From Verrucomicrobiaceae bacterium (lineage in GTDB: Bacteria > Verrucomicrobiota > Verrucomicrobiia > Chthoniobacterales > JAATET01), in assembly GCA_027488755.1 (NCBI GenBank), contig JAIYAZ010000081.1:1-33128 (forward strand): a DNA stretch of 33,128 nt. Direction: 5' to 3'. Numbering within the stretch: the first letter of the stretch is position 1; each line of letters starts with the position of its first letter. Shown one piece after another: positions 1,848 through 29,129 of the stretch. Made by a program: the position numbers and the translations under genes. The notes beneath the pieces are model-generated. The model was not told where the DNA came from and did no database searches. It saw nothing but the letters and a program-made list of their open reading frames with translations.

Positions 1848-2684
1848 TCAATCGCGGCCCACAAAATCCGACCAGGCGGAGAGGGCTTGCTCCAAGGGAG
1901 GCAAGTGCGGATGCCAGTGCCGTTCCCACTCCAGGGAAATCACGCCCTCGTAACCGTCTTCTCGCAGCAGTTCATCCAGCTCAGCAAGGGGAAAGTCACC
2001 GGCGCCCGGGGGAACGTAGGATCGGACACCCCCGACCGCGGAGCTGTCTTTGACGTGGATGTGGCGAATCCACGGGCGAAGGGTCTGCCATGTCTGGCGA
2101 ACGGACTCTCCGCCAAGGTGCCAGGTGTGGTGGCTGTCCCAGAGTATATGAATACCGTCGGGCATGCGCGCGGCCAACTCGAGCACGGGTGGGCTGGTTA
2201 CTAGGGAATCGTGGGTCTCGATCAATAGGTCACAGGCCCATCCCGCCGATTCGCGTTCGGCGCTCCATGCCGAGAGAAGATCGAGGGCGGGCTGCCAGCC
2301 CGCCGCGTCGCGCGGAGGCTGATTGCGGGGCCCGCCGTCGAAGATTCGGATCCAGGGGCAGCGAAAGTGTTCGGCAAGCCGGGCAAAGCCGCGCAGTTCA
2401 TCGAGCCCCGTCATGCCATCGAGCAGCCGCGCGGAAGATCCAAGCACGACCACGCGCTGGCCGGCTGCCGCGAGCAGATCGGCGGCGGCATCCAACCCGC
2501 TCTCCGCGAACCAGCCGGGGAGATCCAGCCGGCCCGCGACGAAACGCAGCTCCAAATCCTGCAGGCCGAAACGAGTCGCGAGGGCGCTGATTTTGATCAG
2601 GTCGAGTTCCCCGCAACCGAGGCTGGAAAACGCGCGTCGGAAGAGCCGCGGTGGAGGATTGGTCCGCTCAAGTGCTGAGGTCAT
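1848..2684 (-). CDS. sugar phosphate isomerase/epimerase family TIM-barrel protein
   Basis: A 278-residue xylose-isomerase-like TIM barrel (AP endonuclease 2 superfamily), predicted to isomerise or epimerise a sugar or keto-sugar using a divalent metal. The usual metal-site motifs occur in order: Glu156 in LLIETHD, Asp183 with His185/His186 in LWDSHHTW, His210 in HIHVKD, and Glu252 in ISLEWER. The length is typical and there is no signal peptide, so it acts in the cytoplasm. I chose the ATG at 2684, which overlaps the end of the upstream dehydrogenase gene by 17 bases. An in-frame ATG at 2723 would add 13 residues (MAGRSSPNSTSGP) lying wholly inside that gene. The overlap implies translational coupling. 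The exact substrate cannot be read from the sequence. Confidence 0.88.
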   Translation of the reverse strand: MTSALERTNPPPRLFRRAFSSLGCGELDLIKISALATRFGLQDLELRFVAGRLDLPGWFAESGLDAAADLLAAAGQRVVVLGSSARLLDGMTGLDELRGFARLAEHFRCPWIRIFDGGPRNQPPRDAAGWQPALDLLSAWSAERESAGWACDLLIETHDSLVTSPPVLELAARMPDGIHILWDSHHTWHLGGESVRQTWQTLRPWIRHIHVKDSSAVGGVRSYVPPGAGDFPLAELDELLREDGYEGVISLEWERHWHPHLPPLEQALSAWSDFVGRD

Positions 2685-3720
2685 AGGCCCGGAGGTCGAG
2701 TTCGGAGAGGAGCGGCCGGCCATCCAGCCATCGGCTCAGATTGTCGAGCACGAGCTGACCGCACCGGGGAAAACAATCCGGCGTGGGGCCGCTGACGTGC
2801 GGGGTGAGGGTGACGTTGGGGAGGCCGCGCAGCGGGGAGGCGTGGGGCAGGGGCTCCTCGGCGAAAACATCGAGCGCAATCCGCAGGTGCCCCTCCCGCG
2901 CGACGCGAACAAGCGCGCTTTCGTCCACGACCGCGCCACGGCCACAATTGACCAGAACCGTGCCGGGCCGCAGGGCCCGCAGATGCCGTTCCTCGACCGA
3001 GCCTTTGCTGCGCGGCGTGAGGGCTTCGAGTTCCATGAGCACGTCGGCTCCCGAGCCGAAGAGGGATTCAAGGTTGGGCAGGGGCTCGGCTCCATATTGG
3101 CGAATGAAGTCCGGATCCACGCCTTCGGAAAATACCTCGACCCGAACCCGGAAGGGCTTCAGCAAACCAAGGAGGGTCCGGGCAATCCGGCCGAAGCCGT
3201 GAATCGCGACGCGGCGGTCGAACAGCGTTCGTCCGTCCCCATGGCCGGTTCGCCAACCCGCGCGTTCATGCATCACTCCGCCCCAATACTGGGTTTCGCG
3301 CAACGCGGCCAGGGCGAGGAGCAGCGCATGTTCCGCGACCGTCTCGGCGGCAAGATCGCCCCAGTTGCTGACCCGCACGCCGTGTTCCAGAAAATGCCGG
3401 GGAAGCAGTTGGCGCACCGAGCCGGCCACATGAGCCACGTAGCGCAGGTGCTCGAGCGCCGCCTCCGGCAACGGGGGCGTGGACCAATGGCTGACCAGCA
3501 CTGCCGGGCGTTTGGCCGCGAGCAGGCCGGGCCAATCCATTCCCGGTGCCGTGGGATTGATCGCGTTTTCCGCGCGGGTCAGGCGGATCAGGTCTTCCCC
3601 GAGGGAGCCGGGAAAAAACGCCGACCACTCGGCCGGGGTAAGGGCGATGATTACAGAAGGCACGGGCGAGGGGAATGGCCTCTTCGGGTCGCTTCTCGCT
3701 TTATGAGCCGCGAAAAACAA
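2668..3720 (-). CDS. D-isomer specific 2-hydroxyacid dehydrogenase family protein
   Basis: An NAD(P)-dependent oxidoreductase of the D-2-hydroxyacid dehydrogenase family, 350 residues if translated from 3720. The nucleotide-binding Rossmann motif is at about 171-181 (VAIHGFGRIAR), and the catalytic Arg261 (NCGRGAVVDE), Glu289 (LDVFAEEP) and His308 (LTPHVS) are all present, so it should be active. The physiological substrate is probably a sugar-derived 2-keto or 2-hydroxy acid, but the sequence does not tell. No ATG fits: the most upstream start is TTG at 3720, and GTG at 3663 (giving PSVIIALTPAEW near the N-terminus) is an attractive alternative because conserved-looking sequence begins there. 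It is transcribed divergently from the GH36 gene and overlaps the downstream isomerase-like gene by 17 bases, so the two form one operon. Confidence 0.88.
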   Translation of the reverse strand: MFFAAHKARSDPKRPFPSPVPSVIIALTPAEWSAFFPGSLGEDLIRLTRAENAINPTAPGMDWPGLLAAKRPAVLVSHWSTPPLPEAALEHLRYVAHVAGSVRQLLPRHFLEHGVRVSNWGDLAAETVAEHALLLALAALRETQYWGGVMHERAGWRTGHGDGRTLFDRRVAIHGFGRIARTLLGLLKPFRVRVEVFSEGVDPDFIRQYGAEPLPNLESLFGSGADVLMELEALTPRSKGSVEERHLRALRPGTVLVNCGRGAVVDESALVRVAREGHLRIALDVFAEEPLPHASPLRGLPNVTLTPHVSGPTPDCFPRCGQLVLDNLSRWLDGRPLLSELDLRAYDLST

Positions 3721-10244: not shown

Positions 10245-10260
10245 AGCGGATGCGCGGCGA

Positions 10261-10277
10261 TCTCCCCGCCCGGGAGA
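10261..10277. terminator. hairpin after the GH51 gene
   Basis: TCTCCC (10261-10266) and GGGAGA (10272-10277) can form a six-base-pair stem with a five-base loop, 16 bases after the GH51 stop. No T-tract follows, so intrinsic termination is uncertain. The position between two likely transcripts makes it a reasonable candidate. Confidence 0.33.
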
Positions 10278-10304
10278 CCCAAAACTTCGGCACCGATGAC
10301 AAAA

Positions 10305-10320
10305 TAGAAACGCGTTTACT
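10305..10320. promoter_or_regulatory. candidate LacI-family operator before the PEP-CTERM gene
   Basis: TAGAAACGCGTTTACT contains the ten-base perfect palindrome AAACGCGTTT (10308-10317) and shares the 12 bases AACGCGTTTACT with the site at 3779-3790. It lies 67 bases before the chosen start of the PEP-CTERM gene. Sharing suggests the same LacI-type regulator controls both promoters; no such regulator is in the window. Confidence 0.5.
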
Positions 10321-10387
10321 TCAAAACCATTCGCGTGCCCTTGGGGACAGTGAAATATTTTGTCGAGTTCCTTCCCTCCACTTACCC

Positions 10388-12535
10388 ATGAAAATTCGAT
10401 TTGTCGGCGTTATTTCCTCGCTTGTTTTTGCCCTCTCCGTCCACGCGCAAACCTCGTGGAATGCCAGCACAGGCGGGGACTGGGATCTGGCGGGAAATTG
10501 GAATCCTGCGGTGATCCCGAACGGCGTTGGAGCCGATGTGCGCATCACGAATCTTACGACGAGCGGGGAATACATCATCAGCGCCTCGGTCCCCCAGGAC
10601 TTCACCGTCGGGCGGCTCGACTTCGGCACCAACACGGCGAACGTCGATCTCGACATGCTTCTCGATGCCAATGTCAGTCTCATTTTTGATGTGACGACGG
10701 GCAGCGCGCAACTCAACTTGGCCACCGGCGGGAGCGGCTCAACCATGACGATCGATTCCTCGATCCAGTTGAACGACAACCTGACCTCCACCAGCGTGCG
10801 CAACGGCGGCACCCAAGTGACCGCCCAATTCACCGGCGCGATCAACCTTCAGGGCAACACTTGGACGGTCAGCAACACCGTCCAACCCCTGCGTTTTGAC
10901 GGTTTGATTTCCGGCTCCGGCGGTGGGTTCATCATCGCCAACCCTAACGCGACCACCCGCCAAACGTTTTTCAACAACACGGCCAGCACCTTCTCCGGTG
11001 GCGTCAGCATCCAGCGGGCCGCCACCGTCCAGCTCAGCTCAACCAATGGCAACTACACCGCCACCGGCGGCGGGGGCATCCTCGGCACCGGCACGATTTC
11101 CGTGGCGAGCGACAGCACCACGAACGACAACCTCGCCGCCACGATCAACTCGAACGGTGCATTTTTCACCAACGACTACACCGATACGACGACCAACGTG
11201 CTTGGTAACACCTTAGACATCGCCTCGGGCCGTGTCCTGCGAATCGATACCGGAAACCGCCCCATGAACTTCGGCGACGCCGACGGCGATCTCACCGGCT
11301 CCGGTCGCTTGGTCAAGGTCGGCGGCCAGGCCAACGGTCCTCGCCAACTCGCGCTCAACTTCGCCAACACCGGCTTCACCGGCGTGGTGGAGATTCAAGA
11401 CGGCCAGATTCAAACCCGCGTCACGAACGCGCTGGCCACCGGATCCACCATTGTCTTCAATCCGCAGAACAGCACCAACGGCGTCGCCCTTCAGGGTGGC
11501 ATGGCCAGTGGTGCGGCCGTGACGATCGGCAGCAACCTTGACTTCCAACGCACCGCCTCCGGCCACGTCCAGTTTATCTCCACCTCCGGCAATTCCACCT
11601 TCGAGATCACCGGCAACTTCTCCAACTCGGGCACCGGCACCGCCGGCTACATCGGCGTCGGTCGTGGCAACAACAACAACACCGTCGGCAACGGCGGTTT
11701 TTCCGTCGGCACGAACACCGGCAATGCCACCATCATCCTCAGCGGCACGGGCACGCTGGAAAACAACGTCGGCATCGTGGACGGCACCAGCACGCAATCC
11801 ATCCTCCGCCTCGCCAACACCAGCGGTGCCCAGACCTTCTCCGGTGTCATTTCCGGCAACGGCGACCTCGTCCGCAACGGCGTCGGCGGCACCACCATCG
11901 TCTCCGGCATCAACACCTACAACGGCACCACGACCGTCAGGGCGGGTCGTCTCGACGTGGACGGCACGCACGGTGCGGCCAGTGTGGTCGGGGCCTACGC
12001 GGTCAATGGTGGTATCTTGGGTGGTAACGGGGCCATTCGCGCCGGATCCGGCTCGGCGGTCGCGATTGCGGCCACCAGTTCGGCGATGATCACCGGTGGT
12101 GCCTCCGGCATCGTTGGGAATCTCAAACTTGATGGTGGCGCGACGACCGGTGCGATCTTGAGCATGGCCACGGGCACGACCTTCACCTTCGACATCGGGG
12201 CCACCGCCGACAAAATCAGTTTTTGGAACTATGCCGGGGCCGCCGACTTCGTCCGCAACAACAACCTCATCGATCTCGCGGACATCGGCAGTGCGGGAGT
12301 GGGAACTTACACGTTGTTCGACTTCTACAGCGATGGCGGAACAACCCCGACGGCGTCCGGCATCACGGACGGCTTGGCCCTTGGCGTCATTCCCGCCGGA
12401 TGGAGTGCCAATCTGGTGTTCAATTCCAACTCGATCGACCTCCAGCTCAATGCCGTGCCCGAGCCAGCTACGGTTGCCCTGATTGCCACGGGTCTCGCGG
12501 CGGTCACCCTGTTCCGTCGTCGTCGCAATTCGTGA
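10388..12535 (+). CDS. secreted PEP-CTERM protein with autotransporter-type beta-strand repeats
   Basis: A 715-residue exported surface or matrix protein of unknown binding partner. It begins with a clear signal peptide (MKIRFVGVISSLVFALSVHA, cleavage likely after residue 20). The body is very rich in Gly, Asn, Thr and Ser and consists of repeated short beta-strands of passenger-domain type, with an autotransporter-associated repeat at about 490-530 (GINTYNGTTTVRAGRLDVDG). The C-terminus carries a PEP-CTERM tail: VPEP at 690-693, a hydrophobic stretch, then RRRR and two residues. Such tails are cut by an exosortase during sorting; none is encoded here. I chose the ATG at 10388 because it begins the signal peptide; the frame is open back to 10250. 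There is no catalytic motif. It sits between the GH51 and GH1 genes behind its own operator-like site. Confidence 0.9.
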   Translation: MKIRFVGVISSLVFALSVHAQTSWNASTGGDWDLAGNWNPAVIPNGVGADVRITNLTTSGEYIISASVPQDFTVGRLDFGTNTANVDLDMLLDANVSLIFDVTTGSAQLNLATGGSGSTMTIDSSIQLNDNLTSTSVRNGGTQVTAQFTGAINLQGNTWTVSNTVQPLRFDGLISGSGGGFIIANPNATTRQTFFNNTASTFSGGVSIQRAATVQLSSTNGNYTATGGGGILGTGTISVASDSTTNDNLAATINSNGAFFTNDYTDTTTNVLGNTLDIASGRVLRIDTGNRPMNFGDADGDLTGSGRLVKVGGQANGPRQLALNFANTGFTGVVEIQDGQIQTRVTNALATGSTIVFNPQNSTNGVALQGGMASGAAVTIGSNLDFQRTASGHVQFISTSGNSTFEITGNFSNSGTGTAGYIGVGRGNNNNTVGNGGFSVGTNTGNATIILSGTGTLENNVGIVDGTSTQSILRLANTSGAQTFSGVISGNGDLVRNGVGGTTIVSGINTYNGTTTVRAGRLDVDGTHGAASVVGAYAVNGGILGGNGAIRAGSGSAVAIAATSSAMITGGASGIVGNLKLDGGATTGAILSMATGTTFTFDIGATADKISFWNYAGAADFVRNNNLIDLADIGSAGVGTYTLFDFYSDGGTTPTASGITDGLALGVIPAGWSANLVFNSNSIDLQLNAVPEPATVALIATGLAAVTLFRRRRNS

Positions 12536-15803: not shown

Positions 15804-17428
15804 ACCCATCCCGCCGCCCCTCCTGGTTGCACCAAGCCGTTTTTTATCAAGTTTATCCCCAATCCTTCGCGGACTCGAACGGCGACGGCATTGGCGATCT
15901 ACCGGGTTTGATTTCCAAACTACCCTACCTGAAATCGCTCGGGGTCACCGCGCTGTGGCTCAACCCGATCTTTGAATCCCCCTTCGGCGATGCAGGCTAT
16001 GACATCTCGGATTTCCGCAAAGTCGCCGCCCGCTACGGCACCAATGAGGATGCGATCCGCCTCTTCCAAGAGGCCCACAAACTCGGGTTGAAGGTGGTGC
16101 TCGATCTGGTCGCCGGTCATACCTCCGACGAGCATCCGTGGTTTCAATCGGCTGCCAGCGACCCCAAAAGCCCTTACCGCGAACACTACATTTTTACCGG
16201 CGACGAACCGCAGCAATCGATGTTCGGCGACAGCATTCCCCGGACCGCGCAGGGCGAACATTTTGTGGCCAACTTTCTGCCCTTTCAACCGGCCCTGCGC
16301 TACGGTTACAAGCACCCTGATCCCTCCAAACCTTGGCAATTGCCACCCGAGCATCCGGCCTGCCTTGCGGTGCGCGTGGAGCTGCGGGACATCATGAAGT
16401 TCTGGCTCGATCTCGGCTGCGATGGATTTCGCGTGGACATGGCCGCCTCGCTGATCCGCGGTCCGGGGGACAACACCATCCTCGCCCGACTGTGGCAGGG
16501 ATTTCGCTCCTGGTTTGATCGGGACTATCCCGAGGCCGTGCTGGTTGCCGAGTGGGGCAATCCCATCGAAGCGATCAACGCGGGCTTCCACATTGATTTT
16601 TTGCTCCATTTTGGCGAACCCGCCTACACCCACCTCGTCGGCTCGCCCAACGAGATCATCGGCAACCGGCGCGTGCCCCACGTCTTCTTCGAACGCTCCG
16701 GAGAGGGCGATATCCGGCTCTTTCTGGACAACTACCTCAAGCACTACTCGGCAACCGTCGGGCGCGGCTACATCTCGCTGCCGACCGGAAACCACGATTT
16801 CCAACGCCCGCGTCGCGGCCGGGACCTTGCCGACCTACGCGTGCTTTACGCCATGCTCTTCACCATGCCCGGCACGCCCTTTCTCTACTACGGCGATGAG
16901 ATCGGCATGCGCAATATCGACGGCCTGCCGGAGAAGGAAGGCTCCATGTGGCGCACCGGCAATCGCACCCCCATGCAATGGGAACACGGGGCCCCGAATC
17001 TCGGCTTCTCCACCGCGCCGAAAAAACGGCTTTACCTCCCCGTGGACCCCGCCAAGGACGCTCCCACCGTGTCGAAACAGCTCGCCGACAAGGCGTCACT
17101 CCTGCACCTCACCCGTTCGCTCATTGCCCTGCGGCGAAAGCATCCTGGTCTCGGCAACGACGCCGAGTTTCGTCCGGTCTTCGCCCAGAGCGGACGCTAT
17201 CCGTTCGTCTATGAGCGCGGCACCGCCGCCACCGGACGGTTCCTCATCGCCATCAACCCCGCCGCGGCACCCTGCGTGGTCGATTTGCCCGCCTTGGGGC
17301 AGGCCCGTGTTTTGTTGGCCGAAGGCACGAAACGCGCGGGCACGAAACTGACGCTTGCCGGCGTTTCCTTTGCCATTTTCTCCCTGCCGGAACCCGCCCG
17401 CGGCCGAGCCGTCTCCCGCGCCTCCTGA
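15800..17428 (+). CDS. GH13 family alpha-glucosidase-like enzyme
   Basis: A retaining alpha-glucan-active enzyme of the alpha-amylase family, most similar in layout to intracellular alpha-glucosidases. Of 542 residues, the barrel carries conserved regions in order: VFYQVYPQSFADSNGDGIGD, DLVAGHTSDEH, the nucleophile Asp213 in GFRVDMAAS, the acid Glu251 in VAEWGNP, and Asp333 in GNHDFQRP. A short domain C ends the protein (about 460-542). No signal peptide is seen. The ATG at 15800 overlaps the sulfatase stop as ATGA, and the conserved N-terminal WLHQAVFYQVYP follows within ten residues. It is odd in a cluster otherwise aimed at xylose, arabinose and galactose linkages; it may remove alpha-glucosyl residues or handle storage glucans. 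Confidence 0.93.
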   Translation: MNPSRRPSWLHQAVFYQVYPQSFADSNGDGIGDLPGLISKLPYLKSLGVTALWLNPIFESPFGDAGYDISDFRKVAARYGTNEDAIRLFQEAHKLGLKVVLDLVAGHTSDEHPWFQSAASDPKSPYREHYIFTGDEPQQSMFGDSIPRTAQGEHFVANFLPFQPALRYGYKHPDPSKPWQLPPEHPACLAVRVELRDIMKFWLDLGCDGFRVDMAASLIRGPGDNTILARLWQGFRSWFDRDYPEAVLVAEWGNPIEAINAGFHIDFLLHFGEPAYTHLVGSPNEIIGNRRVPHVFFERSGEGDIRLFLDNYLKHYSATVGRGYISLPTGNHDFQRPRRGRDLADLRVLYAMLFTMPGTPFLYYGDEIGMRNIDGLPEKEGSMWRTGNRTPMQWEHGAPNLGFSTAPKKRLYLPVDPAKDAPTVSKQLADKASLLHLTRSLIALRRKHPGLGNDAEFRPVFAQSGRYPFVYERGTAATGRFLIAINPAAAPCVVDLPALGQARVLLAEGTKRAGTKLTLAGVSFAIFSLPEPARGRAVSRAS

Positions 17429-17480
17429 CTCGTCCGTCGCTCCCGCTCCTTCCGCTCACCCACCCACATCTCCGCATCCA

Positions 17481-19403
17481 ATGAATGAAATCTTTCCCAC
17501 CGGCGACATCGTCCGTTCCCACTGGCCGGTCGAGACGGACAAATCAGTGAATCTCTATCTCGGCACCGGACGATGCGGCGGCTGCTTCGACGCTTATGGT
17601 CTTCAACACCGGGCCGATGCCGATCCCGCCGCCAAACGCGTTTCGTCCACCCGCCTGTCGCACGCGGAGGTGTGGCATCGCGGGCGGTTTGGTTTCGACT
17701 CCCAGGTCCCGCTGACGCGGCTTGTCTGGTCGGTCGCCCCCGGTGAACCGCAGGCCTACCACCAGCATTTGCGCCTCGCCACCGGCAGCCTGGAAACCCG
17801 CTTCGAGTCGGAGGGATTTGCCTACACCCTCGCATGCTCCACCAGCCCCGCGGAGGCCGACCGGGATTTTCTGCGCCTTCACCTGACCTGGTCGGGAAGT
17901 ATCCGTCCCGCGCTTTGCATCGAGACGGTGCGGGACTTTGTCACCGACTACGGCGATGAACTGCCCGCCACGACAAGGTTCGACCTCGACGGACAACACG
18001 CGGGTTTTCACATTTCGCGGGGCACAAGCGAGGGTCTTTGCCTGGTGCATTTCGCCGGGAAGGTGACGGCCACGGCAAATGGGGATCGGCTGGCGCTTGA
18101 ACTCGCGGCCCCCGAGGGCGCAGCCACCCTCACGCTTGCCCTTGGACCGGCGGCCCGCCGCACGGAACTGGAGGCTCGACTCTCCGCCCTGTCCGAAATG
18201 GATTGGCCGGTCTGGAAGGATCACGCCGAAACTGCGTGGAAACAACGCTGGGGTGCGAAGGTGGAGCCGCCCGCCGGACTCTCGCCGGAGCATGCCGCGC
18301 TGTTTCAACGCAGTCATTACCACCTGCTCTGCACCTACGCCCCCGATGTGCGCTGCCCGGCCCCGCCCATGGGATTCACCGGCAATGCCTGGGGACGCCA
18401 TTTTCCGCAGGACCTCTCCTACATCCACCCGGCCCTGCTGGCCCATGGGCATAGCGACATCACGCGGGCGCACGTGGAGTTTTACCACTCCTGCCTGTCG
18501 GATCAGCTTCGACTTACGCGGGAGTTTTATAAAAAACCCGGCGTCTGCTGGTCGTGGGAATACCCCATCGGCCCGGATGCCCGCCTATTCCGTCCGGAGG
18601 ACGGCGGGGTGCCCAACGAGTTTCAATTCGAAATCCACAACGCCGCCTATCCGGCCAAGATGGCGATTGAGACCGCCGCGGCATTAAACGACGCCGCGTG
18701 GGCCGCCGCCGTCGCCTGGCCCGTGGTGCGCGAAAGCGCGCGATTCCTCTTCGCCTGCCTGCAACGCGAGGCCAACGGCACGCATTCCGTCGTGGTCACG
18801 CCGTCGATGGGGCAGGACGAGTTCGGCGGTCCAAATGCCAAAAACTACCTCTGCGCCCTCTTTGCCACCGAATACACCCTGCGCGAGGCCGTGCTACTCG
18901 CCGGGCAGATCGGATGCACCGATACGGAGACCGACGCATGGGCGCAAGTGCTCGCGGACGGTCTCGCCTACGCCCGCTTGCTCCATCCGGAGCACGCGTT
19001 TTTTGCCGCCAACGAATCCATCCCGTTCGAGCCCCGCCGCCAAAAACACCCGGTGCAGCTCAATCCCCTCTGGCTGCTTCCGCTGGGTCGCGAGCCGGAT
19101 GCGCCCACGCTTTCGGCGTATCGCCAGCGCCGCTTGATCTGCTCCAGCGAACGCGAGGGTCAACGCCACCCCGGCATTCCCACGGGATTCTATGATGGCT
19201 GGACCCTGTTTGCCTTCCAACTCTCCGCCGCCCGCCTCGGCGACCGGGTCGGTTGCGCGCATGAACTTCGGGAAATGCTCCCGGCCCGCGCGGTCGATCC
19301 CGATCACATCACGATCTACGAATCCTCCGGCTTCTGGCAGCCCTACTACACCACCAGCATGGGGCTCTATCTACAGGTCGCCCGTTTGATCGAGGTCACT
19401 TAA
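17481..19403 (+). CDS. GH65-like (alpha/alpha)6-barrel glycosidase, specificity unknown
   Basis: A 640-residue protein with an N-terminal beta-sandwich (about 1-250) and a helical barrel (about 270-620). GFTGNAWGRHFPQDLSYIHP resembles the GH65-type GYxGHxFWDxD segment, and Glu384 in FQFEIHNAAYP is in the place of the general acid of GH65 and clan GH-L enzymes. PTGFYDGWTLFAF lies near the end. There is no signal peptide, so it is cytoplasmic. The start at ATG 17481 follows the GH13 stop by 52 bases; earlier in-frame codons are Pro/Ser-rich and unlikely to be translated. A role in hydrolysing or phosphorolysing an alpha-linked oligosaccharide, together with the adjacent GH13 enzyme, is an inference. 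The FWD motif of true GH65 is not conserved, so a distinct family is possible. Confidence 0.65.
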   Translation: MNEIFPTGDIVRSHWPVETDKSVNLYLGTGRCGGCFDAYGLQHRADADPAAKRVSSTRLSHAEVWHRGRFGFDSQVPLTRLVWSVAPGEPQAYHQHLRLATGSLETRFESEGFAYTLACSTSPAEADRDFLRLHLTWSGSIRPALCIETVRDFVTDYGDELPATTRFDLDGQHAGFHISRGTSEGLCLVHFAGKVTATANGDRLALELAAPEGAATLTLALGPAARRTELEARLSALSEMDWPVWKDHAETAWKQRWGAKVEPPAGLSPEHAALFQRSHYHLLCTYAPDVRCPAPPMGFTGNAWGRHFPQDLSYIHPALLAHGHSDITRAHVEFYHSCLSDQLRLTREFYKKPGVCWSWEYPIGPDARLFRPEDGGVPNEFQFEIHNAAYPAKMAIETAAALNDAAWAAAVAWPVVRESARFLFACLQREANGTHSVVVTPSMGQDEFGGPNAKNYLCALFATEYTLREAVLLAGQIGCTDTETDAWAQVLADGLAYARLLHPEHAFFAANESIPFEPRRQKHPVQLNPLWLLPLGREPDAPTLSAYRQRRLICSSEREGQRHPGIPTGFYDGWTLFAFQLSAARLGDRVGCAHELREMLPARAVDPDHITIYESSGFWQPYYTTSMGLYLQVARLIEVT

Positions 19404-19422: not shown

Positions 19423-20064
19423 ATGAATTCCTCTCCCGTCCAACCCAACGACCGCGTCCTCTTCGAGGGCGACAGCCTCACCGACGGCTTGAAAAACAAC
19501 TACGGCCGTCAGATGGGTTGGGATAAAACCTGGGCTCACCGGATGGACGAGTGGTTGTTTACGCACCGGCCCGAGCTCAATCTCGAGTGCAAGAATCTCG
19601 CCGTCGGCGGCAACTCCACCCGCAACCTCCTCGCCCGCGTCGAGGCCTCGGCCGCCTTCAAGCCGACCGTCGTGCTTTTCACCATCGGCACCAATGACGC
19701 CCTCATCGGCCTGCCGCTCGACGAGTTTCGCGCCAACCTCACGGCGTGGTGTGATCGTCTTCAGGCCGCCGGTTGCCGCACGTTTATTCATGTCGGCGGC
19801 TTCCCGCCTTGTCCGAATGTGGATGCCGAGACCCGGGCCATTCTTGAGCGCGGCCAACCCTACGATGCGATCACCAAGGCAGTGGTCGAGGCATCCGGTG
19901 GCTTCCAGATCGACGTCGCTCCCTCCCTCCTGCCCCGCGCCGAAGCTTTGGAGCGGAAATGGTCGCACCACACCGTCTATTCCAGCGGCGTCCACTATAA
20001 CGCCCTCGGCAACGAACTTATCGCCGGGGCGGTGCTCACGCACCTCGGCTTCTGGAAACCGTAA
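19423..20064 (+). CDS. small cytoplasmic SGNH/GDSL hydrolase
   Basis: A 213-residue single-domain esterase of the SGNH superfamily, likely removing acetyl or similar acyl groups from oligosaccharides. Block I is GDSLTDG with nucleophile Ser18, block II is NLAVGGNS with Gly62/63, and block III is GTND with Asn91. Block V reads SSGVHYN with His191, where the usual Asp three residues before the His is Ser188, so the standard triad is incomplete and it may work as a dyad. There is no signal peptide. The ATG at 19423 follows a purine-rich AAGGGAA and leads directly into the first strand. It lies 19 bases after the GH65-like gene and 40 bases before the beta-propeller gene. Confidence 0.88.
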   Translation: MNSSPVQPNDRVLFEGDSLTDGLKNNYGRQMGWDKTWAHRMDEWLFTHRPELNLECKNLAVGGNSTRNLLARVEASAAFKPTVVLFTIGTNDALIGLPLDEFRANLTAWCDRLQAAGCRTFIHVGGFPPCPNVDAETRAILERGQPYDAITKAVVEASGGFQIDVAPSLLPRAEALERKWSHHTVYSSGVHYNALGNELIAGAVLTHLGFWKP

Positions 20065-20104
20065 ACTCAGCTTCATCCCATTCAACCACCCACCGCCAAA
20101 AATC

Positions 20105-21133
20105 ATGAAACTCGAACTCCTCGCACTCCAACCGACCCCCGTTGTTCCCAAATCCACCGCGCTCGCCAGCGGTGTCCAATTCGGCTTTGAGGGCGGCACG
20201 GCGCACAAGGTCGGCGAGCGCTACTACGTTTTCACGACCGAATGCGTGGCCGAACCCAAAACCGCCGCCTCGCGCCTCGCCCTCTACGTCAGCGACGACG
20301 GCATCGCCTTCACCCACCACTCCACCGTGCTCGACCTGCACGGCGACTGGCGCGACCCGGCGACGTTTTGGAATCCCTGGTCGCCGATGGTGGTCTTCGA
20401 CGAAGCCCTCAACCGCTGGTCGCTCTTCTACGTCCACTACGTCCGTAAGCCGGGCTCCGACCAGCCCTACAACATGACCGGCCGCATGGCCCGCCTCGAC
20501 TCCTCCACACTCGGACGCGAGGGCATCACCGGACCGTGGGTCAAAGCAGGATTGATCGATCTCGCCGACGACCAACCTGACCCGTGGGAAGGCTCGTGCA
20601 AGGTCGTCTCGTTCTATCCCTACAAGGCCGCCGACGGCCTCTGGTGGGGCTTCTACGGCAGCAACAATGCCCCGGAATTTATTCCGCCCCATGACCTGCC
20701 GCAGGAAGGCAGCGCCATGAAATTCTGGGTCGGACTCGCCAAGTCCGCCGACAACACCCTCACCGGACGCTGGGACCGCCAGACCGCGCTCAACCCCGTG
20801 CTCATGGATCCCGATTTTATGGAGAACCCGGTCGTCACCCGCCTGCGCGAGGACCTCTTCATCTGCGTCTATGACGGCGGCAACACCCACGGCATCTCCT
20901 ACGCCTTTTCGCGCGACGGGGTCAAATGGGACGCCGAGCAAGTGCTCGCGCTCCCCGACGCCCCCGCATGGCTCAAGGCCATCCGCACTCCGCTCGGCCT
21001 GATCGAGGAAAACGACGGCAGCTACACGATCTTCTTCACCGCCTTCGACGGCGAAAATCCCGAAGGCATCGTCCCGCTCTGGCACGATGGTTTCGGCCAC
21101 CTCGGCCGCTGCCGCGTGCGCGTGTCGGACTAG
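20105..21133 (+). CDS. putative five-bladed beta-propeller glycoside hydrolase (GH43/GH117/GH130-like)
   Basis: A 342-residue protein made of repeated beta-blade motifs typical of the GH43/62/32/68/117/130 superfamily. Blades read as GFEGGTAHKVGERYYVFTTE, NPWSPMVVFDEALNRWSLFY, DPWEGSCKVVSFYPY, MENPVVTRLREDLFICVYDG and DGSYTIFFTAFDG. Candidate catalytic acids are the Glu in FEGG, in WEGS and in MENP, but I cannot match them with confidence to one family. There is no signal peptide. The ATG at 20105 was chosen because the first blade begins shortly after it; the frame is open further upstream through the SGNH gene in another frame. By context it is probably an exo-glycosidase on an oligosaccharide. 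Its substrate is unknown. Confidence 0.65.
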   Translation: MKLELLALQPTPVVPKSTALASGVQFGFEGGTAHKVGERYYVFTTECVAEPKTAASRLALYVSDDGIAFTHHSTVLDLHGDWRDPATFWNPWSPMVVFDEALNRWSLFYVHYVRKPGSDQPYNMTGRMARLDSSTLGREGITGPWVKAGLIDLADDQPDPWEGSCKVVSFYPYKAADGLWWGFYGSNNAPEFIPPHDLPQEGSAMKFWVGLAKSADNTLTGRWDRQTALNPVLMDPDFMENPVVTRLREDLFICVYDGGNTHGISYAFSRDGVKWDAEQVLALPDAPAWLKAIRTPLGLIEENDGSYTIFFTAFDGENPEGIVPLWHDGFGHLGRCRVRVSD

Positions 21134-23772: not shown

Positions 23773-23793
23773 ATGCACCAGGGATATCCGCGC

Positions 23794-24873
23794 ATGAATA
23801 AACCACTCGACATCGCAATCATCGGCGCTGGCGGCATCAGCCGTGCGCACACGCACGCGTTTCCTTTTTTTCGGGATCGTCTAGTGCTTTCGGCGGTCTG
23901 CGATACGCACGAAACGGCCGCCCACGCTTTGGCGTCCGAATGCGGAACAGGCATTCCTGTGTTCTCCGATCATCGGCAACTGCTGGCGCAAATCCGACCG
24001 GATGCCGCCATCATCACGCTGCCGCACTTCCTGCATTACCCGGTCGCTCGGGATTTCCTTGATGCCGGTGTGCCCGTGCTGGTGGAAAAGCCGGTCACCT
24101 GCACCGGGGCCGAGTTGCGCGAGTTGGACGCGATCGCCAAACGAAAAAAGCTCGTTCTGCTGGCCGGACAGATGCGGCGATTCAACGCGGCGGTGCGCAA
24201 AGTGAAAGCATGGCGCGACGCTGCTCCGGAAAACTTTGGCGAACTCCGCAGTTTCGACGTCGTGGTGCAGGTCAACATTGACGCCTACACGGGCGGCAAG
24301 ACCGGCCACTGGATTCTCGACGGCGCGAAAGCGGGCGGGGGAGTCATCACCAGTTTCGGGATTCATCGCGTGGATTTGGTGCGGCACCTCGGTGGCGCGG
24401 ATTTCGCGGAGGTCACGGCCATCGGACGCTTCGATGCGCCGTTCACGAACCGCGCGGAATCACAGGCCAGCGTCTTGTTTCGCATGAGCAACGGCGCGAC
24501 CGGCACGCTGCACGCCAACGCCCTCGCGCCGCGCACCCCGTTCATGGACAGTTTCTGCCTGCACGGCACGCACGGCACGATTCTGGAAGTCGCCGGGCCG
24601 ATGCGTTACGCCACCACCACCGGCACGATCACAAAACAATGGGGCGATCAGCACCAGGGCTTTGTCGAGGCGACGGATTCCAGTGACCCCAAAGACGACG
24701 CCTTCGCCCAACAACTTCTGGCGTTTGCGGACGCGGTGCAATTTGGGCGCATGCCGACATTCAACACGTCGGAGGAAAACTTCAACACCGTCGCCTGCAT
24801 GGATGCCATTGCGGAAAGCTTGCGCACCGGCGGAACGGTGAAGGTAGCGAAACTCAAAGCCGTGTCAGAATGA
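23794..24873 (+). CDS. Gfo/Idh/MocA family NAD(P)-dependent oxidoreductase
   Basis: A 359-residue two-domain dehydrogenase that oxidises or reduces a sugar or sugar derivative. The Rossmann domain (about 1-125) begins IAIIGAGGISRAHTHA and contains the catalytic-site VEKPVTCTG. The C-terminal alpha/beta domain contains GHWILDGAKAGGGVITSFG followed by HRVDLVRHLGG, whose His is the usual active-site residue. It is cytoplasmic. Two in-frame ATGs exist: 23773 directly after the preceding stop, and 23794, which has an AGGG about nine bases upstream and starts at the conserved strand, so I prefer 23794. The stop overlaps the next start as ATGA. Members of this family can act in redox-assisted cleavage of glycosides via 3-keto sugars; whether this one does is unknown. 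Confidence 0.92.
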   Translation: MNKPLDIAIIGAGGISRAHTHAFPFFRDRLVLSAVCDTHETAAHALASECGTGIPVFSDHRQLLAQIRPDAAIITLPHFLHYPVARDFLDAGVPVLVEKPVTCTGAELRELDAIAKRKKLVLLAGQMRRFNAAVRKVKAWRDAAPENFGELRSFDVVVQVNIDAYTGGKTGHWILDGAKAGGGVITSFGIHRVDLVRHLGGADFAEVTAIGRFDAPFTNRAESQASVLFRMSNGATGTLHANALAPRTPFMDSFCLHGTHGTILEVAGPMRYATTTGTITKQWGDQHQGFVEATDSSDPKDDAFAQQLLAFADAVQFGRMPTFNTSEENFNTVACMDAIAESLRTGGTVKVAKLKAVSE

Positions 24874-27800
24874 AGAAACCTGGAATTCAATCGAATCGCG
24901 TGAGTGTCCGGTGTGATGAAATCGCGCTGCCCACCTATTTGCCCGATGCGCCGGACAAGAATCCGATGTTTCTGGAAAAGCGCGTGTATCAAGGCAGCAG
25001 CGGCAAGGTATATCCGCTGCCTTTCACCGATCGCATTGCCGAAAAACCGGTGATCCGGAAATGGAAGGCGATTTGGATTGAAAACGAATTTCTCCGCGTG
25101 CTCGTGCTGCCTGAAATCGGCGGACGCATCCATGCGATTCAGGATAAAACCAACGGCTATGACCTAGTTTACAACCAGCAGGTCATTAAGCCGGCACTGG
25201 TCGGCCTGGCCGGGCCGTGGGCGTCCGGCGGCATCGAGTTCAACTGGCCACAGCATCATCGGCCCGCAACTTACCTGCCAGTGGATTTTAAAATTGAACA
25301 AAATGCCGACGGCTCGCAGACCGTTTGGTGCAGCGATCATGACCCGATGTGCCGGATGAAAGGTATGCACGGCGTCTGCCTGCATCCCGGCAAGGCCGTC
25401 GTTGAATTGAAGGTCCGCGCCTACAATCGCACGCCGTTCACGCAAACTTTTCTCTGGTGGGCCAACGTCGCCACCCGCGTGCACGAGGCGTATCAAAGCT
25501 TTTTCCCGCCAGATGTCTATTATGTTGCCGACCACGCGCGGCGCTCAATGAGCGAGTATCCCCTGGCCCAGGGCAATTACTACGGCGTCAATTACGGTGA
25601 GCGTTGTCGTAAGGGAATTCCTCAAAATGAAATTCCCGCGCAATTTGTCCCCCCCCACGCCGGTGGCCAAGTTCCAATGAGCTACGCACCGAACGACCTG
25701 AGTTTCTACGCCAACATTCCCGTGCCGACTTCCTATATGTGCATGGGTAGCCGGGAGGATTTCTTTGGCGGCTACGATTTCAAGGCGCAGGCGGGTATCG
25801 TTCACCTAGCCAATCACCACATCTCGCCCGGCAAGAAGCAATGGACCTGGGGCAATCACGAATTCGGTTACGCGTGGGATCGAAATCTGACCATTGCCGA
25901 TGCCGATGGCGAATTTGCTCCTTACATCGAAATCATGTCCGGCGTCTATACCGACAATCAACCCGACTTCAGCTTTCTTCAGCCCGGCGAGACGAAATGG
26001 TGGAGTCAGTATTGGTATCCGATTCAAAAAATCGGCCCGGCCCAACACGCCAATCTGCACTGCGCGGTCAGTCTGAAGATTGTATCCGGGAAAATTTGGC
26101 TGGGTCTCTCCGTCACCGGCAAATTCACCGGCGCGAAAATCATTCTCACTGCCAACGGCAATAAACTTTTCTCAGCCACGGACGATCTTTTGCCCAACTC
26201 ACCGTTTGTCACAGAAATCAAACTCCCGCACCCCGTGGCAGAAACCGATTTACATGTGCGCATCGTGGATCAGGCCGGCGGCGAGATCATTGCCTATCAA
26301 CCGAAGTTAAGAGTCCAAGGGGAACTCCCACCAACGGCCACCGAGCCGCCACCGCCCGAAAGCATCGCCAGTAACGACGAACTTTATGTCACCGGGCTGC
26401 ATCTGGAACAGTATCGCCACGCCACATGCTGTCCCGCGCTTTACTGGCGTGAGGCTTTACGCCGTGACCCATTGGATTCGCGCTGCAATAATGCGATGGG
26501 CTTATGGTATCTGCGGCGCGGCGAGTTTGCCGTGGCAGAAAAGCACTTCCGGCAGGCAATCGAGCGGCTGACTCGACGCAACGCCAATCCCTACGACGGC
26601 GAGGCTTATTACAACCTTGGCCTGTGTTTACGGCATCTCAACCGCAACGACGATGCTTACGCGGCATTTTACAAAGCGTGCTGGAATCAGCCGTGGCAAT
26701 CCGCAGGCTACCACGCGCTGGCTGAACTTGACTGCCAGAGATCCGAATGGCTCACGGCACTAGATCATCTTGACCGCTCACTTCGGCTGAACACCGATAA
26801 CCTCCGCGCCCGAAATCTCAAGGCCATTGCCCTTCGGCGGTTGCATCGCGATACCGAAGCCGACGAGCTGCTTAGTAAAACACTCGCGCTTGATTCGCTG
26901 GACTGGTGGGCGCTGCATTTATCCGGCCAGCCGTTGAAATGTGATTTGCAGACCGGACTGGACTTGGCGCATGACTTTGCCCGCGCCGGTTTTTATGTGG
27001 ATGCGATTGCTTTGCTGGAAAGTGTGACGGCGAAAAAAGCGGATTTTCCGGATCAAAGCTGGGGCGCGTTGCCACTCGTTTATTATACCCTCGGCTGGCT
27101 GGAGCAAAAGCGTGGGGACGAAGAAGCGGCATTAAGGCACTTCAAGCAGGCTGCCACCCACGCCCCCGATTACTGTTTTCCAGCCCGGCTCGAAGAAATC
27201 GCCATTCTTGAGTCGGCGATGCGGGCGAATCCCGGCGACGCCAAAGCGCCGTATTACCTCGGCAATCTGCTCTACGACCGGCGGCGTCATGCGGAGGCGA
27301 TTCAGTCGTGGGAACAATCCGCAGCGCTCGACCCCAGTTTCTCCATCGTCTGGCGTAACCTCGGCATCGGCTATTTCAACATTCTTGGCCGACCGGCGAG
27401 AGCTCGTGCGGCCTATAACCGGGCGATCAAGGTGAACCCTGAAGACGCGCGCTTGCTATACGAACGCGACCAACTTTGGAAACGCCTCGGCGAAAAGCCG
27501 GTTAAGCGGTTGCGGGAGCTTAAACAACGCCTTAACCTCGTCCTACGGCGAGACGACCTGAGCGTGGAACTCGCCGCGCTCTACAACCAGATCGGCCAAA
27601 ACGCGAAAGCGCTCGCGCTCGTGAGCGCCCGCCATTTTCAACCGTGGGAAGGCGGCGAAGGCGGCCCGCTCGGTCAATGGGTTCGCTCGCACCTCGCGCT
27701 GGGTCGGGCCGCGCTGGAAGATGGTGAGCCGGATACTGCTGGCAAACACTTTGGAGCCGCGTTGACAGCGCCGAAATCGCTCGGCGAGGCCAAACATCTA

Positions 27801-28265
27801 CTGGCCAACCAGAGCGACATTCACTACTGGCTCGGCTGTGCGCTGGCGGCCAATGGCGACACCGCACAGGCTAGAGAACAATGGCTCGCCGCCGCGACAT
27901 TCAAGGGCGACTTTCAGGAGATGAGCGTCCGCGCATTCAGCGAGATGACTTATTACTCCGCGCTGGCGTGGAAGAAACTCGGCCAACGGGCGAAAGCGAA
28001 GAAGCTGCTCCGCGATCTGTTGACTTATGCCCAGACGCTTCAAAAGGCGCAGGCGAAAATTGATTACTTCGCAACCTCACTGCCGACGATGCTGCTGTTT
28101 GACGACGACCTGCAACGGCGACAGGAAACCGCCGCGTTGTTCCTGCAAGCGCAGGCGCGGCTCGGCCTCGGTCAGATGTCGCAGGCGAAAGTCCTGCTCG
28201 CCACTGTTCTTAGACGCGATCCCAGCCACATGCTGGCATCGGACTTTATGTCAGAAGCCACTTAA
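24870..28265 (+). CDS. DUF5107 domain protein with C-terminal TPR array
   Basis: A 1131-residue protein of unknown biochemical role. The N-terminal part (about 30-400) matches the DUF5107 pattern, a galactose-mutarotase-like beta-supersandwich, with VLVLPEIGGRIHAIQDKTNG, GIEFNWPQHHRPATYLPVDF and FGYAWDRNLTIAD. From about residue 510 to the end there are many tetratricopeptide repeats, for example MGLWYLRRGEFAVAEKHF, YYNLGLCLRHLNRNDDAYAA and APYYLGNLLYDRRRHAEAIQ. No signal peptide is present. The ATG overlaps the oxidoreductase stop (ATGA). The gene looks richer in A and T than the glycosidase genes around it, which may reflect separate acquisition. By fold and context it probably binds or processes a sugar, with the TPR part serving protein contacts; this is inference. 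Confidence 0.88.
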   Translation: MKKPGIQSNRVSVRCDEIALPTYLPDAPDKNPMFLEKRVYQGSSGKVYPLPFTDRIAEKPVIRKWKAIWIENEFLRVLVLPEIGGRIHAIQDKTNGYDLVYNQQVIKPALVGLAGPWASGGIEFNWPQHHRPATYLPVDFKIEQNADGSQTVWCSDHDPMCRMKGMHGVCLHPGKAVVELKVRAYNRTPFTQTFLWWANVATRVHEAYQSFFPPDVYYVADHARRSMSEYPLAQGNYYGVNYGERCRKGIPQNEIPAQFVPPHAGGQVPMSYAPNDLSFYANIPVPTSYMCMGSREDFFGGYDFKAQAGIVHLANHHISPGKKQWTWGNHEFGYAWDRNLTIADADGEFAPYIEIMSGVYTDNQPDFSFLQPGETKWWSQYWYPIQKIGPAQHANLHCAVSLKIVSGKIWLGLSVTGKFTGAKIILTANGNKLFSATDDLLPNSPFVTEIKLPHPVAETDLHVRIVDQAGGEIIAYQPKLRVQGELPPTATEPPPPESIASNDELYVTGLHLEQYRHATCCPALYWREALRRDPLDSRCNNAMGLWYLRRGEFAVAEKHFRQAIERLTRRNANPYDGEAYYNLGLCLRHLNRNDDAYAAFYKACWNQPWQSAGYHALAELDCQRSEWLTALDHLDRSLRLNTDNLRARNLKAIALRRLHRDTEADELLSKTLALDSLDWWALHLSGQPLKCDLQTGLDLAHDFARAGFYVDAIALLESVTAKKADFPDQSWGALPLVYYTLGWLEQKRGDEEAALRHFKQAATHAPDYCFPARLEEIAILESAMRANPGDAKAPYYLGNLLYDRRRHAEAIQSWEQSAALDPSFSIVWRNLGIGYFNILGRPARARAAYNRAIKVNPEDARLLYERDQLWKRLGEKPVKRLRELKQRLNLVLRRDDLSVELAALYNQIGQNAKALALVSARHFQPWEGGEGGPLGQWVRSHLALGRAALEDGEPDTAGKHFGAALTAPKSLGEAKHLLANQSDIHYWLGCALAANGDTAQAREQWLAAATFKGDFQEMSVRAFSEMTYYSALAWKKLGQRAKAKKLLRDLLTYAQTLQKAQAKIDYFATSLPTMLLFDDDLQRRQETAALFLQAQARLGLGQMSQAKVLLATVLRRDPSHMLASDFMSEAT

Positions 28266-28268
28266 TAT

Positions 28269-29129
28269 ATGATGGTAGTCGATGTTCAGCTGGCCGGAGT
28301 GGAGTTCCGCCTCGGCGAAACGGTCGCCGGCTTTTACCGCCACACTGACGAATTTAAGCCGCACATTCACCCGCTACGGACCCCGCGCGGACACTACGTC
28401 ACGAGTGCCAGTCCGCACGACCACAAGCATCATAAGGCACTGATGTATGCGCTGCGCGCGGAGGATGTGAATTTCTGGGAGGAAGTCGCCACGCTGCCAA
28501 CCGAGGTTCCCGGCATCGAGCGGCACTTGGATTTTTCGAACATCGTCAGTCGCGGGCCGCAAGTGGGCTTCACCGAAACCCGGCGTTGGACGGCCCAGGA
28601 CGGTTTACTGCCGTCGTTTGATGAAGTGCGTAAGATCACCTGCCGCCACGATCCGGCGGCGCGGGCGTTTGTCTGGACCTGGGCGACCCAACTCACGGCC
28701 TTGCGCCCGCTGGATCTGGTTCAAAGCCAGTGGAGTCACGGGCTGCCGGACGGGACGAAGGTGAATTACCACGGCTTGGGCATCCGCTTCCGGCGCGATT
28801 TTGGCGGCATGACCGGCAATCACGAACTGCGCGTGGACGGCGCGGTGTTTAAAGAGAAGTTTCAGCAGCAGATGGGCGCGCGGCCCAAGGAGGTCACCTT
28901 CATCGGCAGCCTGGACGAAACCTGGCCGGTTGAGCGGGCGGGCGTGACCTTTCAGCAGGCCACCGGGCAGGACAACACGCTTTACATCATGGAGGACTAC
29001 ATCCCGTTCATGGGCCTCGGCCCGACCAATCGTGCTCCCATAAACTCGCCTCCGGCCAAACCATCGAGGAGGCCTACACCGTCACCGTGTTTGATGTCTG
29101 AACTTAAATCATCCTTAAACCACCCATGA
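28269..29129 (+). CDS. DUF6807 (PmoA-like) family protein with probable 3' frameshift
   Basis: A cytoplasmic protein of unknown function, 286 residues as read. The N-terminal part fits the DUF6807 pattern: GETVAGFYRHTDEFKPHIHP, then SPHDHKHHKALMYAL with a His cluster, and a central beta-sandwich. The last 27 residues from about 29042 are Pro/Ser-rich and unlike the family. The +2 frame instead reads KLASGQTIEEAYTVTVFDV and stops at 29101, a natural C-terminal strand, so one base seems to be missing near 29040-29043. The true product would then be about 277 residues and end at 29101. Against this, the present stop overlaps the GH42 start as ATGA. Start choice is ATG 28269 or ATG 28272. It follows the DUF5107 gene by three bases, so the two are probably co-translated. 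Confidence 0.82.
   Translation: MMVVDVQLAGVEFRLGETVAGFYRHTDEFKPHIHPLRTPRGHYVTSASPHDHKHHKALMYALRAEDVNFWEEVATLPTEVPGIERHLDFSNIVSRGPQVGFTETRRWTAQDGLLPSFDEVRKITCRHDPAARAFVWTWATQLTALRPLDLVQSQWSHGLPDGTKVNYHGLGIRFRRDFGGMTGNHELRVDGAVFKEKFQQQMGARPKEVTFIGSLDETWPVERAGVTFQQATGQDNTLYIMEDYIPFMGLGPTNRAPINSPPAKPSRRPTPSPCLMSELKSSLNHP

Follow-up and report, generated by a model that had tools for sequence, protein, structure and literature searches.

A recurrent pair of Gfo/Idh/MocA dehydrogenase and DUF6807 genes, probably split by a DUF5107-TPR insertion, in a Verrucomicrobiaceae glycosidase locus

A stretch of 33,128 nucleotides from a Verrucomicrobiaceae bacterium (GenBank assembly GCA_027488755.1, contig JAIYAZ010000081.1, positions 1 to 33,128), hereafter the window, was found to contain three tightly packed open reading frames (ORFs) on the plus strand, encoding in this order a Gfo/Idh/MocA dehydrogenase (Gfo), a DUF5107 protein with tetratricopeptide repeats (DUF5107-TPR) and a DUF6807 protein. 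The conserved unit is the pair of Gfo and DUF6807 genes, which is recurrent and undescribed, and the trio is not a conserved module. The joint anatomy of the locus, a pair split by a recent DUF5107-TPR insert, is very probable, and the wider reading, which adds sugar oxidation by this two-gene operon among glycosidases, is favoured with moderate confidence. The trio itself amounts to ordinary gene shuffling, and the pair is of some interest. An earlier note, made from the sequence alone, had proposed the three genes as one sugar-processing module. The packing that it described, an ATGA overlap joining Gfo to DUF5107-TPR followed by a three-base gap before DUF6807, agreed with the ORF coordinates, and its family assignments were confirmed by Pfam (GFO_IDH_MocA 3e-24, DUF5107 1e-50 plus TPRs, DUF6807 4e-24), as were the glycosidase surroundings by Pfam and family matches (glycoside hydrolase families GH39, GH42, GH43, GH51, GH1 and GH13 in the flanks).

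DUF6807 was found in 52 and DUF5107 in 67 genomes of the phylum set (240 genomes), and in 41 and 20 genomes, respectively, of the order set (197 genomes). The window's own genome contained one copy of each, both at the trio locus. None of the 28 other genomes with both families, counted by hand from the phylum and order tables, was found to contain them within 10 kb of each other, the nearest being 13-15 kb apart (G230); contig breaks could hide a few such neighbours, and several of the 28 genomes consist of a single contig. The expectation of the earlier note that the three families would be conserved neighbours failed on this count and on the closest relatives, which contain no DUF5107 gene between Gfo and DUF6807, and the three-gene module was rejected by this survey.

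The closest DUF6807 relative in the genome collection was found in the Verrucomicrobia metagenome-assembled genome Prado246 (locus L167), where Gfo (84% identical) and DUF6807 (90% identical) stand side by side. Gfo directly followed by DUF6807 was also found in L168 (UBA6056), L182, L185, and L188, and L183 contained the reverse order, DUF6807 followed by a more distant Gfo. The pair was present in every one of the six closest relatives examined. The DUF5107-TPR gene was absent from the pair in L167, L168, L182, and L185. A Gfo gene was found within 300 bp of 27 of the 84 DUF6807 genes examined, a fraction that counts two loci twice and is not unbiased (6 come from the 20 loci with the highest scores and 10 from 40 others, the rest having been picked as fusions or close relatives); all 27 were on the same strand. 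The same distance held for one of 32 distinct DUF5107 genes, the window excluded. On a Granulicella (Acidobacteriota) plasmid the Gfo and 'PmoA family' (DUF6807) genes overlap, and on a Catenovulum plasmid the ThuA and DUF6807 genes overlap. The genes around the pair were found to vary by genome (GH38, GH13 and GH36; GH67 with a weak 3keto-disac_hyd-like domain; GH52; GH95/DUF5703), so a broad sugar or glycoside substrate fits better than one special sugar. DUF6807 is a common family with no function described in the open literature searched, and the recurrence of the operon in at least two phyla offers a directly testable two-enzyme assay for it.

By blastn, window positions 23793-24863 correspond to L167 7439-8509 and positions 28285-29104 to L167 8547-9362, and the 3.42 kb gap in the alignment falls exactly around the DUF5107-TPR gene. 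Since homology ends at 24863 and begins again at 28285, only this gene is extra relative to L167. It is bounded by the only two copies of the 8-bp direct repeat TGTCAGAA in the window, and the C-terminal homology of its orthologues was found to end immediately ahead of the right copy, so that the final residues (SEAT-stop) may be a remnant of the old flank. When the sequence that follows the right repeat was aligned locally with the intergenic part of L167, the match did not exceed that of shuffles, and the repeat-bounded empty site is therefore suggestive only. The G+C content at third codon positions (GC3) of the DUF5107-TPR gene was 0.656, which is 0.10 (2.8 standard deviations) below its neighbours, most flanking genes having values of 0.73-0.80. 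The earlier note had described all three genes as less GC-rich than the flanks; this was found for DUF5107-TPR only, Gfo (0.736) and DUF6807 (0.746) being equal to most flanks, and a GC-poor islet covering all three genes was rejected by the per-gene values. Low GC3 as a general DUF5107 trait was also rejected, as the difference from neighbouring genes had no consistent sign in 18 relatives and DUF5107 was below its neighbours in only 8 of 19 genes. The sister genome G254, of the same genus, was found to contain a truncated DUF5107 gene without residues 175-922 at a different locus (L169 4150-5315). The flanks of that gene are collinear on contig C160 in the genome of the window, separated there by about 71 nt (L192 12990-12919); the DUF5107 gene thus changes place within the genus. 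A single recent insertion, and not only a functional unit, can yield tight spacing and overlapping starts.

The Gfo ORF spans 23773-24873, and its alternative ATG at 23794 agrees with the start in L167. The domains PF01408 (3e-24), PF02894 and PF22725 were all above the Pfam cut-off, giving the N-terminal NAD(P) Rossmann domain and the C-terminal alpha/beta domain of the family. The Rossmann GAGGI, the Asp after beta-2 (NAD type), the EKP and the His at the catalytic position were found to be kept in relatives. Relatives in the PDB were mixed (inositol 2-dehydrogenases, aldose dehydrogenases, sugar 3-dehydrogenases, DgpA and a glucuronide 3-dehydrogenase), so the position oxidised cannot be called. 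The step of Gfo and DUF6807 is probably cytoplasmic, because neither gene appears, by eye, to encode a signal peptide.

The DUF6807 protein matched PF14100 with 86 bits against a cut-off of 27, but the match covers only positions 13-214 of 270, in part owing to a C-terminal frameshift. The family sequence is readable to about 29034, about one base is missing near 29035-29043, and the C-terminal strand TIEEAYTVTVFDV-stop, intact in L167, sits in another frame ending at 29101, followed by an out-of-frame run of the ORF to 29129. Either an error of assembly or a real, recent lesion may account for the frameshift. Outside it the gene looks constrained, because third-position differences from L167 (77) dominate over first- and second-position differences (28). 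In the alignment of 25 DUF6807 sequences, the window included, D51, H52, W70, and R173 were found to be invariant. The His-rich HDHKHH motif of the earlier note is present and is no local peculiarity, being a form of the family-wide DHxHH motif, which could be a metal or an acid/base site. The family is also annotated as 'PmoA family protein'; in the open literature, only incidental mentions of DUF6807 or DUF5107 were found, and 'PmoA family protein' combined with oxidoreductase gave no hits. The close DUF6807 subfamily had no match in a search of plasmids, and no sequence relatives were found among PDB structures. DUF6807 was also found fused to DUF7133 with HEAT repeats/cytochrome c, to ThuA, and to GDSL (among L104-L110, L113, and L115), and one frame fuses it to a methylguanine-DNA methyltransferase domain.

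DUF6807 of L167 was predicted (predicted local distance difference test score 92.5) as a galactose-mutarotase-like supersandwich, and the model matched GalM (3mwx) with Z 17.4 and 3.9 A over 230 residues and the PL26 lyase 5xqg with Z 16.8. The AlphaFold2 (AF2) model of the DUF5107 domain matched 5cd6 with Z 35.1 and GalM 3mwx with Z 24.5. Two of the three proteins thus share one predicted fold class, and the mutarotase-like fold joined to more than 500 residues of TPRs, named in the earlier note for DUF5107, was borne out by this model and by the Pfam TPRs. Profile comparison gave no sequence relation between DUF6807 and DUF5107, and hhalign gave no match between DUF6807 and GalM despite the fold match, the alignments being small.

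Redox-assisted sugar processing is a reasonable, if tentative, reading of the pair. Gfo would carry out the NAD+-dependent oxidation of a sugar or glycoside that the neighbouring glycosidases release, the target perhaps being a ring hydroxyl, for instance that at C3, and DUF6807, with its invariant Asp-His pair, Arg and Trp, would bind the same sugar and act on the product in an acid/base step (anomerisation, epimerisation or elimination). DUF5107-TPR would be a later arrival, a sugar-binding mutarotase-like protein and not a required part. This biochemical division of labour is a tentative proposal. In a more specific form, which is doubtful, Gfo would make a 3-keto-glycoside and DUF6807 would cleave or epimerise it, supplying the lyase or epimerase still missing from an undescribed but widespread glycoside pathway dependent on Gfo; this route would parallel the known TIM-barrel and 3keto-disac_hyd routes.

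Several points weigh against the favoured reading. Taken by itself, the 8-bp repeat could have arisen by chance, a match as long being found in about 1% of shuffles. No adjacent Gfo was found for 57 of the 84 DUF6807 genes, some of which stand instead beside ThuA, cytochrome/DUF7133, GDSL or rhamnosidase genes (DUF6807 follows alpha-L-rhamnosidases in two loci), so the family may serve more generally as a module that binds sugars. Oxidation at C3 is only an analogy with the Gfo family, the PDB ranking being mixed, and the reaction of DUF6807 is only proposed. The frameshift may leave the window's own DUF6807 non-functional.

The rival that survives best takes DUF6807 as a plain aldose mutarotase that supplies a 1-dehydrogenase with the right anomer of a released monosaccharide in an ordinary oxidative pathway. 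The fold match to GalM, the free sugars released by the glycosidases around the pair and the presence of aldose 1-dehydrogenases in the Gfo family are consistent with it, but no profile-level homology of DUF6807 to GalM was found in the small alignments compared, a GalM-type gene is already present in the genome, and the ThuA fusions and the weak 3keto-disac_hyd-like neighbour in L168 point to keto-sugar pathways; this rival was considered rather unlikely.

A true three-protein module, with DUF5107-TPR as the scaffold that holds the dehydrogenase and DUF6807 together for a concerted sugar step, would account for the ATGA overlap and 3-bp gap and has an analogous combination in YphG, YphC, and YphB of the Escherichia coli yph cluster; it was judged improbable against the lack of adjacency in the 28 genomes, the missing middle gene in the closest relatives and its deviating GC3. 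Loss of DUF5107-TPR from an ancestral three-gene operon could give the same alignment gap by a precise deletion, but the gene is missing in four further divergent pairs, its low GC3 is found in the window copy only and it lies at another site in G254, which makes such a loss highly improbable. An assembly or binning artefact that wrongly joined DUF5107-TPR into the pair, conceivable in a draft genome of 169 contigs where the frameshift marks at least one local sequence problem, is equally improbable, as neither junction interrupts a reading frame, the gene has its full length and its nearest full-length orthologue, in the same order, forms one supported clade with it.

The features of the locus are given in Table 1.

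Table 1. Features of the pair and of the inserted gene, in window coordinates
Feature	Position	Strand	Basis
Gfo/Idh/MocA NAD-dependent dehydrogenase, first gene of conserved pair	23794..24873	+	Pfam, motifs, 84% identity in L167
Left copy of 8-bp direct repeat TGTCAGAA; L167 homology stops here	24863..24870	+	
DUF5107-TPR gene (YphG family), probable insert within pair, 1131 amino acids	24870..28265	+	missing from pair in relatives; GC3; orthologues
DUF5107 domain, predicted galactose-mutarotase-like beta-supersandwich, residues 9-398	24894..26063	+	AF2 model, Z scores
TPR array, about residues 527-1126	26448..28247	+	Pfam TPR families
Right copy of direct repeat TGTCAGAA, just ahead of DUF5107-TPR stop	28249..28256	+	L167 homology resumes 28285
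DUF6807 ORF, second gene of pair	28269..29129	+	Pfam PF14100 4e-24; 90% identity to L167
DHxHH family motif in local form HDHKHH	28416..28433	+	alignment; D51, H52 invariant
Out-of-frame C-terminal remainder of DUF6807, TIEEAYTVTVFDV-stop	29035..29101	+	other frame; L167 intact

The DUF5107-TPR protein was found to have the YphG-type architecture, an N-terminal DUF5107 followed by C-terminal TPRs in about 1100 amino acids, and its closest full-length relative is a 72% identical orthologue in G326, from another family of the same order. DUF5107 genes elsewhere stand beside AraC or ROK regulators, MFS or ABC sugar transporters, GH2, or MFS with an aldose 1-epimerase. A sugar transporter and an AraC/ROK regulator are the usual, though not strictly defining, neighbours of this type, and the window contained Gfo and DUF6807 in their place. 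A YphG-type protein likely has a role in sugar binding or uptake coupling.

In the flanks, two genes at 1851-3720 lie on the minus strand, opposite to the trio: an AP_endonuc_2 TIM-barrel protein resembling sugar isomerases (1851-2723), 20 kb from the trio, and a D-2-hydroxyacid dehydrogenase (2671-3720). In keto-sugar pathways, Gfo has TIM-barrel proteins of the AP_endonuc_2 kind as partners. The glycosidase run also contained a 761-amino-acid protein with a PEP-CTERM sorting motif and a weak PATR repeat (10250-12535), and two long ORFs with no Pfam match (19694-21133 and 17355-19403), the latter with a weak kojibiose-hydrolase-like match in NCBIfam. No RNA elements or tRNAs were found in the window.

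Among known systems, the levoglucosan pathway LgdA-B1-B2-C (PMC7676230) and the C-glycoside DgpA/CGD pathway (PMC8563793) are of the Gfo/Idh/MocA 3-dehydrogenase type. The LgdA and DgpA pathways and the route of the BT_2158-type glycoside 3-dehydrogenase (NCBIfam NF058561) resemble the window in that the gene for a Gfo oxidoreductase lies in a carbohydrate cluster with one for a small protein that modifies sugars. Gfo of the window matched the 3-dehydrogenase families weakly, below the curated cut-offs, and the partners in the Lgd and Dgp pathways are sugar isomerase/epimerase-like TIM-barrel enzymes or the beta-sandwich CGD subunit, whereas the window partner is the mutarotase-fold DUF6807. 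Pfam gave no 3keto-disac_hyd or TIM-barrel enzyme for 3-keto-glycoside cleavage among the genes of the operon.

The GalM superfamily has the fold common to DUF6807 and DUF5107 and differs in giving no profile-level sequence match to either. BDI_1685 (PDB 5cd6), a DUF5107 TPR protein of Parabacteroides distasonis, has the same DUF5107 fold (matched over 322 residues), with a shorter TPR part (575 residues in all) and an entry title that gives no function. YphG of E. coli is a DUF5107-TPR protein of similar length, 34% identical to that of the window from end to end (1137 columns), for which no functional paper was found. The yphB-yphG cluster of E. coli K-12 (L194 5817-14746) contains the aldose-1-epimerase-like YphB, the dehydrogenase YphC and the ABC transporter YphDEF. 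Like the trio, it combines a dehydrogenase, a mutarotase-like protein and a DUF5107-TPR protein, but from other families, with a zinc-type dehydrogenase, a mutarotase-like protein other than DUF6807 and an encoded transporter. By this parallel, the combination may be useful even though that of the window is recent.

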